From contig JASBVO010000006.1 of assembly GCA_029961105.1 (NCBI GenBank), forward strand, positions 166,185 to 230,184: a stretch of 64,000 bases of DNA. The letters are read 5' to 3'. This DNA comes from Micrococcus sp. (lineage in GTDB: Bacteria; Actinomycetota; Actinomycetes; Actinomycetales; Micrococcaceae). A program made the position numbers and the translations under genes. The notes below the pieces were generated by a model that was given only the letters and a program-made list of their open reading frames with translations, searched no databases and had not been told where the DNA came from. Positions within the stretch are counted from its first letter, which is position 1, and each line of letters starts with the position of its first letter. This document shows positions 8,922-63,754 of the stretch, piece by piece.

Positions 8922-10061
8922 ATGAGCACCGTCTCGCGCGTCCTGACATCCCGGGTCCCCGTGGCCGCCGCACCGATGGCCGGCGGACCGTCCACCTGGC
9001 AGCTCGCCGCGGCCGTGACCCGGGCGGGCGGGACCGGCTTCCTGGCGGCGGGGATGCGCCCGGTACAGCAGCTCGTGCAGGACGTGGCCCGCACGCGCAG
9101 CGCTCTGGAGGGGATGGACGATCCGGTCTTCGGGGTCAACCTCTTCGTCCCCGAGCCGGCGAACACCGCCGTCCCCGCGGACCGCAAGGCCCCCGGCTCC
9201 GAGGCCCGCCGGCGCCGCGCCGAGTCCGTGCGGCAGTACCGTGCCAGCCTGCTCCCCGAGGCCGAGCGCCTGGGCGTGGAGCTGCCGGGCGAGGACGCCC
9301 TGGACCCGGACGCCATGGACGACTGGGAGGCCAAGTGCGAGGCGTCCGAGGCCGGGGCCTGGCCCCTGGTGACCTTCACCTTCGGGCTGCCCGCACCGTC
9401 CGTGTTCGACCGCTTGCACGCCGCCGGCTCGGTGCTCGGGGTGACCGTGACCAGCGCGGCGGAAGCGGCCCGCGCCCTGGACCACGGGGCGGACCTGCTC
9501 TGCGTCCAGGGCCCGGAGTCCGGCGGCCACCGCTCGGTGCACGACCCCGCCGCCGATCCCGGCACCACGCCCCTGCTGTCCCTGCTCGCCGAGGTGCGGG
9601 CCGCCGTCGGGACCGGCGCCGGCCCCGACGTCCCGCTGCTGGCGGCCGGCGGCATCATGGACGCCGCCGGCGTGCGCCGGGTCCTGGAGGCGGGCGCGAC
9701 GGCGGCGCAGTGCGGCACCGCCTTCCTGCTGGCCGAGGAGGCCGGGACCTCGCCGCTGCAGCGGGCCGCGCTGGAGCAGGCGGCGTCCGGGACGGGGTTC
9801 GTGCACGACGACGGCTCCGCGATGACCGCGCTCACCCGCGCCTACTCCGGCCGCTGGGCCCGCGGTCTGGCGAACCGGTTCATGCGCGAGCACGCGGACG
9901 CCCCGGCCGCCTATCCGGAGGTCAACACCCTCACCGGGCCGCTGCGCAAGGCCGCCACCGCGGCCGGTGACGCGGAGTCGGTGAGCCTGTGGGCCGGCGT
10001 CGGGGCCGCCTGCGTGCGCTCCGCCCCGGCCGCGGAGATCGTGCGGAGCCTGACGCCCTGA
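8922..10061 (+). CDS. nitronate monooxygenase / 2-nitropropane dioxygenase family flavoprotein
   Basis: PVAAAPMAGGPSTWQLAAAVTRAGGTGFLAAGM; GPESGGHRSVHD; LLAAGGIMDAAGVRRVLEAGATAAQCGTAFL. Confidence 0.88.
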   Translation: MSTVSRVLTSRVPVAAAPMAGGPSTWQLAAAVTRAGGTGFLAAGMRPVQQLVQDVARTRSALEGMDDPVFGVNLFVPEPANTAVPADRKAPGSEARRRRAESVRQYRASLLPEAERLGVELPGEDALDPDAMDDWEAKCEASEAGAWPLVTFTFGLPAPSVFDRLHAAGSVLGVTVTSAAEAARALDHGADLLCVQGPESGGHRSVHDPAADPGTTPLLSLLAEVRAAVGTGAGPDVPLLAAGGIMDAAGVRRVLEAGATAAQCGTAFLLAEEAGTSPLQRAALEQAASGTGFVHDDGSAMTALTRAYSGRWARGLANRFMREHADAPAAYPEVNTLTGPLRKAATAAGDAESVSLWAGVGAACVRSAPAAEIVRSLTP

Positions 10062-10306
10062 GCCTGACGCCCGGAGCCTGACGCCCTGAGCCGCGGGGCC
10101 GTTCCTGCGGAACCCTGTCCGGCGGCACCGGTTCCCGGGTCGCAGACCATGGGTCCTGGGCGCCCCCCACCCACGGTTCGTGACCCGAGAGCGCGGCGGA
10201 GCGCGCAGGCTGGTGGAGCGCGCAGGCTGGTGGAGCGCGCAGGGCGGCGAAGACCAGACCCGGGGATGACGCGGAGGTTCCCGGCACCGGCCTAGGGTGG
10301 GACACC

Positions 10307-35138: not shown

Positions 35139-35948
35139 TCAGGGGGACGGTCGCAGGACGTACCCGGCGCCCCGGACGGTATGGATCATCGGTTCCCGGC
35201 CGGCGTCGATCTTCTTGCGCAGGTAGGAGATGTACAGCTCGACGATGTTGGCCTGCCCGCCGAAGTCGTACTGCCAGACGTGGTCCAGGATCTGCGCCTT
35301 GGACAACACGGCCCGGGGATTCTCCATGAGGTAGCGCAGGAGGTTGAACTGGGTCGCGGTGAGGTCCACCGGCTCGCCGGCGCGCGTGACCTCGTGGGTG
35401 CGGATGTTGAGCACCAGGTCCCCCACCACCAGCTCGTCCGCGTCCTGCGCGGCCACCCCGGAGCGCTGGACCAGCCGGTGCAGGCGGATCAGCACCTCCT
35501 CCAGCGAGAACGGCTTGGTGACGTAGTCGTCCCCGCCGGCCGCCAGGCCCCGGATGCGGTCGTCCACCGAGTCCCGGGCGGTGAGGAACAGCGCCGGCAC
35601 GTCCGGGCGGAAGGCACGGATCCGCTCCAGCACCTGGAGCCCGTCCAGCTCCGGCAGCATCCAGTCCAGAACCAGCACGTCCGGCTGGGCGTTCCGGGCG
35701 GTCTCGACCGCGGCGCGTCCGGCGTGCGCGACGTGCACCTCCCAGCCGCAGAGGGACAGGCCCATGGAGACCAGGTCCGCCAGCATCGGTTCGTCGTCCA
35801 CCACGAGCGCGCGCAGGCGGCTGCCGTCCGGGTGGGAGAGCTTGGGCAGGATCTCGTGCAACGCCGCCAGGGACGTGGGCGAACCGTTCGCGGCGGGCGG
35901 ACCGGAGGCGGGGGAGCCGGACAGCGGGCCGGAAAATGAGGAGGTCAC
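35139..35948 (-). CDS. OmpR/PhoB-family response regulator (TcrX-like)
   Basis: LRALVVDDEPMLADLVSMGL...DVLVLDWMLPELDGLQVLERI; winged helix DLVLNIRTHEVTRAGEPVDLTATQFNLLRYLMENPRAVLSKAQILDHVWQYDFGGQANIVELYISYLRKKID; GTG start. Confidence 0.93.
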   Translation of the reverse strand: MTSSFSGPLSGSPASGPPAANGSPTSLAALHEILPKLSHPDGSRLRALVVDDEPMLADLVSMGLSLCGWEVHVAHAGRAAVETARNAQPDVLVLDWMLPELDGLQVLERIRAFRPDVPALFLTARDSVDDRIRGLAAGGDDYVTKPFSLEEVLIRLHRLVQRSGVAAQDADELVVGDLVLNIRTHEVTRAGEPVDLTATQFNLLRYLMENPRAVLSKAQILDHVWQYDFGGQANIVELYISYLRKKIDAGREPMIHTVRGAGYVLRPSP

Positions 35949-36152
35949 GGTTCGCTCCTAGAGACGGGCGGGTTTTAGGGCGAGGACGCCATGTCCAGTC
36001 CAGACTCCCATCCTGTCAGGAGGATCAGCCAGACCTGTGCCCAGGCTGTGACCTTTTCTCCCCCGGAAGCCGCCTGCGGTGCAGCGCGGCTTCGGTACTG
36101 AATCGCCCTGGGTTTCTTGGAGGCTCCTGACCTTGGAAACGAGGATGGAGTC

Positions 36153-59224: not shown

Positions 59225-60721
59225 ATGTCGATGCAGGCAGTCGCCGGGACCGCGGTGGATCCGAGGGCTCTGGGCGGCATACCGCGGGCGCGGATGGCGG
59301 CGGGCCTCGCCGTCGCCGTACTGGTCCCGGGGGCACTGCAGACCCTGTGCCTGGTGGTGTGGGATGCCGGGCTGACCACCACGTCCTTGCTGCAACTCAC
59401 CGGTGCGGTGGTGGCGGCCCTGCTCGGAGGCCTGGTCCCCGGACTGGTCGCGGCGCTGTGGGCGAGCCTGTTGCTGAACTACTTCATGGTCGAGCCCACC
59501 GGGTCGTTGTTCATCCACGACGCCGCAACGGCCGTCTCCTTGGCCTGCTTCGTGATGGTGTCGGGGGCGGTGGCCCTGGTGGTGCATCTCTCGGCGCGGC
59601 GGCTGGCGCAGGCGCGGCGGGCGCAGGCCGAGGCGGAGGTGCTCAACCGGCTGGCGCTGATCGTGGTGGCCGCGGAGGATCCGGTGTCCAGTCTGCTGGG
59701 ACAGGCCCGGGAGGTGTTCGGCCTGGACGGTGTCGCGCTGTTCGTCCACCCCCCGGCCATCGCGGGACAGTCGGAGCCGAAACTGCGGTGGGAGCGGGGA
59801 GCGGCGGTCGGACGGGTGCCGGCCTCGGTGGACAAGGCGGACATGGTGGAACCGGTGGACGAACACACCGTCCTGGCGTTGCGCGGCCCGCGGGTGCCGA
59901 CCGGGGAGCGGGACCTGCTGCGGGCGTTCACTGCTCAGTTGGTCGCGGTGCAGGACCGCCAGCGGCTGATGCGCAGCATGGACGAGAACCGGGTGCTGGC
60001 CCAGGACAACAAGATGCGCACCTCCATCCTGCAGGCGGTCAGCCACGACCTTCGCACCCCACTGGCCGGGATCAAGCTGGCGGCAAGCAGCCTGCTCCAG
60101 CCCCAGGGACGCTTCGATGCCGCTGAACAACATGAACTGCTGGACACCATCGAGGCCTACGCCGACCAATTATCGGGGATGGTGGAGAACCTGCTGGACA
60201 TGTCCCGGATCACCGGGGACGCGGTGGGTGCGGTACTGGGGCCGGTGCAGTGGCAGGACGTGCTGCCGGGGGCGCTGGGCGCGGTCCCGGCCGAGTCCGT
60301 CGATCGGCACGGCGTGCAATCCGGTGGTCCGGTGCTGGCGGATGCCGGACTGCTGGAGCGGGTGATCGCGAACCTGGCCGAGAACGCCCACCGCCACGCC
60401 CCCGGATCCCGGATCACCCTGGTGAGCGGCGACCGGATCGACGACGCCGGGACAGTGGTCGGCGAGCTCCGGGTGATCGACACCGGCTCACTGCCCCTGC
60501 CCCAGGATCTGGAGCAGTTGTTCACCCCCTTCCAGCGCTTCGATGACACCGGGGACGGGTCCGGGACCGGCCTGGGCCTGGCGGTGGCCCGCGGGCTCAC
60601 CGAGGCCATGGGTGGAACCTTGCACGCCCAGCGGACCCCCGGCGGAGGGCTGACCATGGTCCTGCGCTTGCGTCAGGCCGCCCCGGGTCCGGGCACCGGA
60701 GCACCGGCGGAGGGGCGGTGA
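59225..60721 (+). CDS. DUF4118/KdpD-like sensor histidine kinase lacking the N-terminal KdpD and Usp domains
   Basis: LLGGLVPGLVAALWASLLLNYFMVEPTGSLFIHDAATAVSLACFVMVSGAVALVVHLSARRLAQA; AVSHDLRTPLAGIKLAASSLL; GTGLGLAVARGLTEAMGGTL. Confidence 0.9.
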   Translation: MSMQAVAGTAVDPRALGGIPRARMAAGLAVAVLVPGALQTLCLVVWDAGLTTTSLLQLTGAVVAALLGGLVPGLVAALWASLLLNYFMVEPTGSLFIHDAATAVSLACFVMVSGAVALVVHLSARRLAQARRAQAEAEVLNRLALIVVAAEDPVSSLLGQAREVFGLDGVALFVHPPAIAGQSEPKLRWERGAAVGRVPASVDKADMVEPVDEHTVLALRGPRVPTGERDLLRAFTAQLVAVQDRQRLMRSMDENRVLAQDNKMRTSILQAVSHDLRTPLAGIKLAASSLLQPQGRFDAAEQHELLDTIEAYADQLSGMVENLLDMSRITGDAVGAVLGPVQWQDVLPGALGAVPAESVDRHGVQSGGPVLADAGLLERVIANLAENAHRHAPGSRITLVSGDRIDDAGTVVGELRVIDTGSLPLPQDLEQLFTPFQRFDDTGDGSGTGLGLAVARGLTEAMGGTLHAQRTPGGGLTMVLRLRQAAPGPGTGAPAEGR

Positions 60722-61392
60722 CGACGGTGCTGGTGGTCGAGGATGAACGCCGGTTGCTGCGTGCCCTGCAGCTGGCGTTGCAGTCCCACGGCTATGACGT
60801 GGTGGCCGCGCCGACCGGCACCAGCGCCCTGGCGTCCTTGGCCGAGCGCGCGGTGGACGCGGTGGTGCTGGACCTGGGTCTGCCGGACATGGACGGCCAG
60901 GTCCTCATCCGGCGGGTACGCGCCACAGCGTCGATCCCGATCCTGGTGCTCTCGGCCCGGCACGCATCCGCGCAGAAGGTGGCTGCCCTGGACGCCGGGG
61001 CCGACGACTACGTGACCAAGCCCTTCGGGCTGGACGAGCTGCTGGCCCGACTGCGGGCGGTGCTGCGCCGCGGGCATCCCACTGCGGACCTCGACCGTGT
61101 GGACACAGGGAGTTTCTCCCTGGATTTCCCCGCACGCCGAGCGGCCCGGAACGGGGACGAGGTGCGGCTGACCCCGACCGAGTGGAAGATCCTGGAGGTG
61201 CTCACCCATACTCCGGGGCGGCTGGTGCCGCACCAGGAGATGCTGGAGCGAGTGTGGGGGCCGGCCTATGTCAAGGAGACCCAGTACCTGCGGGTCTACC
61301 TGGGCCAACTGCGGCGCAAGCTCGAGGCGGATCCGTCCCGGCCCCGGCACCTGATCACCGAGGCCGGGCTCGGCTACCGCTTCGACCCCTGA
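60718..61392 (+). CDS. KdpE-like OmpR-family response regulator
   Basis: GTGA overlap; VLVVEDERRLLRALQLALQSHGYDVVAAPTGTSALASLAERAVDAVVLDLGLPDMDGQVLIRRVR; LTPTEWKILEVLTHTPGRLVPHQEMLERVWGPAYVKETQYLRVYLGQLRRKLE. Confidence 0.93.
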   Translation: MTTVLVVEDERRLLRALQLALQSHGYDVVAAPTGTSALASLAERAVDAVVLDLGLPDMDGQVLIRRVRATASIPILVLSARHASAQKVAALDAGADDYVTKPFGLDELLARLRAVLRRGHPTADLDRVDTGSFSLDFPARRAARNGDEVRLTPTEWKILEVLTHTPGRLVPHQEMLERVWGPAYVKETQYLRVYLGQLRRKLEADPSRPRHLITEAGLGYRFDP

Positions 61393-61414: not shown

Positions 61415-63391
61415 TCAGCCGACGTGGACCCACGGGCGGCGGGTGACGTCCGGTTCGGCGCGGCGCAGGATCTCCCGGGTGACCGGGGCGATCTCCCCGG
61501 CGCCGAACACCAGGAAGCGCAGCAGGTTGGCCAGCGGGTCGCCCTCGGTCCAGCGGAAATGCACGTGCGGCATCAGCCCGGTGACATCCCGGATGTGCAG
61601 CAGCACCGCGGCGATCGTGTTCGGCACCGCGGGCCCGTGCACCTCGAGGATCCTGTATCCGTGCCGGGTGATCCCGTGGACGTACAGCTCGGTCTCGAAC
61701 TCGGAGGAGTCCTCCACCACGACCTCCAGGAAGATGACGTCGGCCTCCACCGGCAGGTGATAGACCGCCTGGGCCGCGGACAGCTTCTTGCGGTAGGCGG
61801 CCTCGTCCAGACGGCGCGGCTCGTGGGCGATGATCTGGATCGGCCCGGTGTCCTCGGCGGCCAGGAACTCCACCGCCGCCGCGTCCAGGTGGACCCGGGT
61901 GGCGTGCAGCTCGAAGGAGCGGGACGCCCGGGACGCGAAGGAGATCACCACGATGCCCAGGATGAACAGCGTGGCGATGCGGATGCCCTCGGGACGCTCC
62001 ACGATATTGACCGCGGCGGTGTAGATGAACACCACGGCGATCGCCCCGAAGCCGGCCATCGACCACCATTGCCCGCGAGCCCGCGCCGACAGGGTCACCG
62101 CCACGGCTGCAGAGGTGATCAGCATCAGGACCCCGGTGGCGTAGGCCCCGCCCTGGGCGTCGACGTCGGCGTCGAAGGCCAGGGTGACGGCGAACGCGAC
62201 GGCGGTCAACACCAGCACCAGCGGCCGGGAGGCCTTCGCCCATTGCGGGGCCATCCCGTACCGGGGCAGATAACGGGGCACCAGGTTCAGCAGTCCAGCC
62301 ATGGCCGAGGCCCCGGCGAACCAGAGGATCGTGATGGTGCTGACGTCATAGACGGTGCCGAAACCCTCCCCGAGGTGCTCATGCGCCAGGTAGGCCAGGG
62401 CACGGCCGTTGGCCTGGCCTCCAGGCTGGAATTCCTGGGAGGGGATCAGCACCACCGTGGTGAAGCTGGAGGTCAGCAGGAACCCACTCATGATCAGCGC
62501 GGCACCGGTGAGCAGCCGTCGGGTGCCCCGGATCCTGCCCGCCGGGTGCTGCTCAGTATCGAACCGGTCCCCGCTCACCTGGGGCATGACCGCCACCCCG
62601 GTCTCGAATCCGGAGAGCCCCAGCGCCAGTTTGGGGAAGACCAGCACGGCCGCGGCAACCGCCAGCGCCGGATTGCCGTAGGAGCCGGCCAGGGCACCCG
62701 CCCAGTCACCCACCACCATGGGATGTGAGAACGCGATGGCCAGGCAGACGACGATCAGCGCGGCGTTCAGGGTCAGGTAGACCGCCACCACCACCACCGC
62801 CACCCCGATGACCTCGTGGAACCCGCGCAGGAACACCACGCCCAGGGCGCCCAGGAGCACCAGCGTGATGGCCACCTCCTGGCCGCGCAGCCCCGCAGGG
62901 ACCAAGGGATTCTCCACCAGGTGCGCGGTGGCATCGGCGGCCGAGAGGGTCATGGTGATGATGAAGCTCGTGGCCGCGAAGCCGAGCAGGCCCAGGACCA
63001 GGAGCTTGCCCCGCCAGCGAGGCAGCAGGCGTTCCAGCATCGCGATCGAACCCGAGCCGTGCGGGCTCTCACCGGCCACTCGCCGATAGACCGGCAACGC
63101 CCCGAACAGCGTCACCAGCACCAGCACCAGCGTGGCCAGCGGGGACAAAGCCCCCACCGCCAGGGCTGCGATGGCCGGCTGATACCCGAGGGTGGAGAAG
63201 TAATCCACACCGGTCAGGCACATCACCTGCCACCACGGATGCCGGCTCTCCCGCTTCCCGGCCTTCGCGTAGGGCCCTTGGCGCAATCCACGCACCTCCG
63301 GCAGGTCATGCAGCAACCACCGGCGCACCCGCTCTCGCCGGGAAGGAGCAGTCCCCCGCAATTCCCACGGAGGCTGGCTCATCGTCGTCAT
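61415..63391 (-). CDS. APC-superfamily permease with large cytoplasmic C-terminal domain (potassium or amino-acid transporter)
   Basis: [105 protein letters not shown]; ~200-aa soluble C-terminus. Confidence 0.85.
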
Positions 63392-63574
63392 CGCTATGTC
63401 CTTCCGCGCCATCTCGACCACTGGAACGAAGCAGACGGTACGCCTCACCACCGGCGTGCCTCCGTGATCTTGATGGATCCTTTACACCCCTCCCTGCACG
63501 ACCTGCGGTGACGACGGCTTCCCGGAGCTCGCGCCGGGACGGATCAGCGCGTCCGCGCGCATGGTTCTGCAGGG

Positions 63575-63629
63575 CCATGCTCGAGCCATACTCGAGTCAT
63601 ACCTGAGTCATGCCGGAGTCCTACGCGAG
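63575..63629. repeat. five tandem 11-bp repeats, consensus YCATRCYBGAG
   Basis: CCATGCTCGAG CCATACTCGAG TCATACCTGAG TCATGCCGGAG TCCTACGCGAG, immediately followed by ccgTTGACA. Confidence 0.85.
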
Positions 63630-63632
63630 CCG

Positions 63633-63638
63633 TTGACA
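63633..63638 (+). promoter_or_regulatory. -35-like TTGACA
   Basis: Canonical hexamer 3 bp after the 11-bp repeat array; possible -10 CAGTGT at 18-nt spacing. Confidence 0.5.
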
Positions 63639-63754
63639 CCCTGATCGCCGAGGTGCCAGTGTGCACTGCATCGCAGGTGGGCCTCGATTCGCTTGGATCA
63701 GCACCGGCATCCCCCCTCTCCGGCGCTGGGTTGTAGTGCATCTCACTGGAAGGC

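Follow-up and report, generated by a model that had tools for sequence, protein, structure and literature searches.

Results

The window, by which we mean the entire 64,000-nucleotide stretch analyzed here, comes from a 3.3-Mb assembly of 31 contigs that is 96.5% complete and whose nearest named relative is a Citricoccus. Near its right end, an intergenic region separates an APC-type permease gene from a gene that reads rightward (Table 1). The latter, previously described as a large gene leaving the window, is indeed present from ATG 63755 or GTG 63761, with better Shine-Dalgarno spacing for GTG, and is cut because its contig (C28) stops at the window's last base. Its orthologue in the congener G002 encodes an amino acid adenylation protein (TIGR01733), and its paralogues bear TIGR02353, the C-terminal domain of Pls/PosA. 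The genus also has full-length paralogues, which are synthetases of the Pls/PosA family adjoining diaminobutyrate transaminases. Both the G002 orthologue and a paralogue on contig C26 are truncated after the adenylation core (A-only), suggesting that the rightward gene may be a remnant. The last 64 bases of the window are 95% identical to the C26 locus, so a repeat is probably where the assembly broke. The duplicated Pls-like adenylation genes comprise the copy at the window's end, G000:C26:9152-10571, and G002:C27:12310-13899, with two copies truncated.

Table 1. Features of the intergenic region, its flanking genes, and a related regulatory site in the window.
Feature	Position	Strand	Sequence or remark	Basis
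PhoP-type box upstream of PhoP-like regulator gene	36034-36051	-	TCACAGC-CTGG-GCACAGG	Conserved in 8/9 orthologues
Sensor kinase with DUF4118, KdpD-like	59225-60721	+	Partner of KdpE-like regulator	
KdpE-like response regulator	60718-61392	+		Best NCBIfam model KdpE, 1.3e-69, below cut-off
APC-type permease gene	61415-63451	-	Conserved start at 63391	80 relatives found
Second 11-bp direct repeat, upstream of permease gene	63468-63485	-	GTAAAGG-ATCC-ATCAAGA	Conserved across loci
Six 7-bp half-sites with 4-bp spacers	63572-63633	+	Three possible tandem dimers	Register inferred
Five 11-bp direct repeats	63575-63629	+	Consensus YCATRCNNGAG	Sequence; lag-11 identity
-35 hexamer	63633-63638	+	TTGACA	Sequence; TTGACC at aligned place in G002
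Putative weak -10 hexamer	63657-63662	+	CAGTGT, 18 bp from the -35, preceded by extended TG motif (TGC)	Inferred; block GGTGYCAGKGTGCASTGYATCGCA conserved in G002
Start of Pls/PosA-like NRPS adenylation gene, cut by contig end	63755-64000	+		Orthologue G002:C27; paralogues

On the other side, the permease gene is neighbored by genes for a KdpD-like kinase and a KdpE-like regulator, and this pair co-occurs with the permease in many other genomes. PDB relatives of the regulator include KdpE (4kny). The permease itself has no match in Pfam and no sequence match in PDB, the latter being the reason that we do not identify it as KimA; we suspect that it transports K+.

The intergenic region contains five 11-bp direct repeats that, exactly as written in the preliminary description, abut a TTGACA hexamer: the units end at 63629 and are followed by CCG, a 3-bp gap, and then by the hexamer. 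Self-identity of the array at a lag of 11 is 34/44, the top lag-11 value of the 64-kb window (runner-up, 27). In 15 Mb of first-order Markov sequence simulated with the composition and dinucleotide statistics of the window, the lag-11 peak was 27 to 30 per Mb, with a maximum of 30. Because this maximum lies below the 34 observed, chance is excluded and the origin of the array is non-random. Neighboring units differ at about a quarter (~23%) of positions, and therefore the array is not a product of fresh slippage or duplication. The window is GC-rich and has many tandem arrays with other periods, some of them intergenic (14-bp × 3.4 at 10046 and 17-bp × 2.7 at 10198). RNA structure z-scores for the array were near 0, an Rfam search of the window gave no match, and a plasmid similarity search found none.

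A genome scan for the motif at 11-bp spacing, also proposed in the preliminary description, revealed no second array in the assembly. When a 22-bp version of the motif was used with up to two mismatches, the sole other match in the 3.3 Mb was inside the coding sequence of a FecCD-type permease, where it is probably a chance occurrence. The pattern scan of 298 Micrococcaceae, allowing at most two mismatches, returned about a dozen matches. Outside the array's own genome, these lie in unrelated contexts and fit a rough chance estimate, so the motif is no regulon signal of the family as a whole. No 11-bp array was found upstream of the paralogous Pls clusters and 23 relatives.

In a 7 + 4 register, the array can be read from 5′ to 3′ as the half-sites GGGCCAT, GAGCCAT, GAGTCAT, GAGTCAT, GAGTCCT, and GAGCCGT, the sixth of which overlaps the first base of the -35 hexamer (1 bp). 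While the -35 is a perfect TTGACA, the best -10 hexamer at a spacing of 17 to 18 bp is CAGTGT, making this a half-consensus promoter, and a consensus scan found no sigma-70 promoter. A weak -10 is what an activator-dependent promoter would be expected to have.

We searched eight genomes of the genus (the window's own included) and 398 genomes of the family for the same leader, start, and promoter, which were found only in G002. Local alignment of the two promoters starts at the array's 5′ edge (63579) and continues through the -35 and GGTGYCAGKGTGCASTGYATCGCA to the start codon. The last four array units are identical to the G002 sequence at 25/44 positions without gaps, compared to 1/11 for the bases just upstream. 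The G002 units keep the array's register and are degenerate, with a lag-11 identity of 13/33 that is the highest among lags 5 to 21 (shuffle p of about 0.03). When the 14.4-kb G002 contig was scanned with a four-unit matrix derived from the window's array, the best match was at exactly the homologous place and register, which homology alone would already favor. By hand count from the alignment, identity between the two promoters is 14/24 in unit-invariant columns and 11/20 in variable columns; as substitutions are not concentrated in the variable columns, they do not demonstrate that the repeat as such is under selection. The comparison with relatives envisaged earlier thus yielded a homologous promoter in register in one orthologue, with degenerate units. 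Judging from this alignment, the array element is old and shared with the G002 promoter.

Roughly 90 bases from the array is the second 11-bp repeat, which differs from it in sequence. In the general form GTWAAGG-N4-RTCAAGA, this repeat is found 93 to 154 bp upstream of the permease start in all Micrococcaceae loci compared (17/17), against a null of at most 12/18 in coding DNA. Variants are present in Streptomyces, Rathayibacter, and Agreia (e.g., GTTAGGA-ATTC-GTTAGGA in the last), and the motif is kept ahead of the permease gene whether or not the regulator gene is adjacent. Because this permease is accompanied in many of these genomes by the KdpE-like regulator and its kinase, that regulator is the natural binder of the permease repeat, which we predict is likely its operator; RegX3 may be an alternative binder.

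Trans_reg_C proteins number eleven in this genome, and we derived candidate regulator sites by comparing upstream regions. The PHO box upstream of pstS in the genus (GTTAAG/GTTAATC/TTCACC) provides half-sites that the array matches poorly, at 2.8 to 3.4/7, and a reading of the array as a RegX3 PHO box was rejected. The window's PhoP homologue (35142-35888), whose closest PDB relative is Mycobacterium tuberculosis PhoP, has a box of its own upstream (Table 1), through which it is predicted to be autoregulated. This homologue had also been put forward for comparison as a binder of the array, which matches its TCACAGC-N4 box at 3.4/7 and does not contain the CACAG core. Upstream of a PrrA-like regulator gene (G000:C6:113884; L205 and orthologues) are three TYCAG repeats with 11-bp spacing that are conserved in the genus; these differ from the array. 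No matching conserved repeat was present upstream of three more response regulators (L009, L012, and L016 families), and the TCAT-N7-TCAT seen at the L016 promoter is unconserved and at chance level.

SARPs are defined by a BTAD domain (Trans_reg_C plus BTAD), and their heptamer consensus is TCGAG. No match to BTAD (PF03704), and thus no SARP, was found in the assembly, which is incomplete to the extent given above and in which contig C28 ends inside the rightward gene. None of the regulator footprints compared matches the array well. The best of the half-sites compared were the SARP-like TCGAGNN, at 5.4/7 in a comparison that let 11 phases vary, so that some excess match is expected, and the E. 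coli pho-box CTGTCAT, at 4.4/7.

Discussion

The array is most likely a new instance of a known operator architecture. OmpR/PhoB-family sites consist of 7-bp half-sites separated by 4-bp spacers, with an 11-bp period, adjoining the -35 (PMC4832192, PMC9019756, PMC5930380). The 7 + 4 layout is backed by published operators and structures (PMC4832192, PMC5930380, PMC9019756, PMC3264566). Such tandem operators have direct repeats of around 7 bp with 4- to 5-bp spacers (10- to 11-bp period), situated on a -35 or immediately before it; the array, with its strict 11-bp period, its six half-sites in 7 + 4 register, and its place next to TTGACA, agrees in both respects. From the sequence, it looks like an element that serves the rightward Pls/PosA-like gene rather than the neighboring permease. 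Our best explanation, to which we assign about even confidence, is that it is an upstream activating element for this gene, in the form of a tandem operator of the OmpR/PhoB type. A winged-helix activator of this type would bind the array head to tail, with one monomer per 11-bp turn and all monomers on one face of the DNA, filling up to six half-sites as three dimers. The last monomer would abut the -35, where RNA polymerase would be recruited by the activator to a promoter whose -35 is good and whose -10 is poor. Protein binding, the class of the protein, and activation rather than repression are what we infer.

Known systems resemble the array to different degrees. The 7-bp plus 4-bp layout with a TCA core is found in known PhoB and PhoP sites (PMC4832192). 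The array has the layout and period of the E. coli PhoB pho box (CTGTCAT(A/T)4CTGTCAT), and its GAGTCAT contains the GTCAT core, but the first two bases of the half-site differ and the spacers are GC-rich. It resembles the actinobacterial RegX3/PhoP PHO box (GTTCACC repeats) in having 11-bp direct repeats upstream of a promoter, though not in half-site sequence, as the pstS comparison indicates. With the M. tuberculosis PhoP box (TCACAGC-N4-TCACAGC), it shares the 7 + 4 layout and a leading TCA, but not CACAG.

The main rival to an activator operator is rather unlikely in our estimation: a degenerate minisatellite to which no protein binds, formed by replication slippage near the promoter of a synthetase gene that is duplicated and may be decaying. 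The arrays of other periods in the window, the loss of most periodicity in the G002 copy, and the truncated A-only orthologue and paralogue are all in line with this explanation. It accounts less well for the divergence between adjacent units, for a period of one helical turn placed exactly beside a -35, and for a G002 homology block whose start coincides with the array's 5′ edge. Ribbon-helix-helix proteins bind 11-bp repeats beside a promoter in plasmid ParR/parC systems, and use of the array by this or another kind of tandem-binding protein, perhaps as a repressor, would agree with the architecture alone; we consider it highly improbable, as no partition genes were seen near the array, no plasmid similarity was found, and the array is upstream of the -35 and -10 rather than over them.

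A SARP-type operator (TCGAGNN heptamers, 4-bp spacers, near a -35) controlling secondary metabolism would suit the NRPS type of the gene served and the top mean match, to which the heptamers TCGAGCC, TCGAGTC, CTGAGTC, CGGAGTC, and GCGAGCC contribute. Streptomyces SARP operators share with the array heptamers, 4-bp spacers, and a place near the -35 of a biosynthetic gene, and SARP sites are 11-bp repeats (PMC5930380), but with no BTAD protein in the assembly we regard this reading as improbable. Least probable of all is the suggestion of the preliminary description that the array is bound by the KdpE-like regulator, whose gene is 2 kb away. The two are in the same neighborhood, and KdpE half-sites at kdpFABC have 11-bp spacing (TTTATA-N5-TTTACA; PMC3264566), yet that site is AT-rich and unrelated in sequence, and the permease-upstream repeat is the better candidate. 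Moreover, the array matches the half-sites of the permease motif at a mean of only 2.8 to 3.8/7, where the motif's assignment to the regulator is itself presumptive, and the Citricoccus locus L026 has the regulator, the permease, and the permease repeat without the array. The proposal of an OmpR-family array is therefore plausible as to architecture (7 + 4, 11-bp period, adjoining the -35), whereas the regulator named as its binder is probably not the right one.

A more specific form of the activator-operator reading, which we offer tentatively as a doubtful but distinct possibility, is that the array is an unusually long, three-dimer operator made of an unrecognized OmpR-type half-site, GAGTCAT-N4, through which a Pls/PosA-type synthetase in Citricoccus responds to a dedicated signal, and that it evolved recently next to a regulator-permease operator that is ancient and shares its architecture. 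If this is true, the array provides a handle on what in Micrococcaceae turns on a Pls/PosA-like synthetase gene, and a single intergenic region contains two neighboring operators that share the 11-bp architecture and differ in sequence. Sturdier by-products of the analysis are two predicted sites, GTWAAGG-N4-RTCAAGA for the KdpE-like module and the TCACAGC-N4 autoregulatory box of the PhoP homologue. In another Micrococcaceae genome (G037, L106:1490-1560), six 11-bp repeats with the sequence GGAGTCRTCYC are located between genes for an ANTAR-type protein and a membrane protein; by eye, they resemble the array, in a different context.
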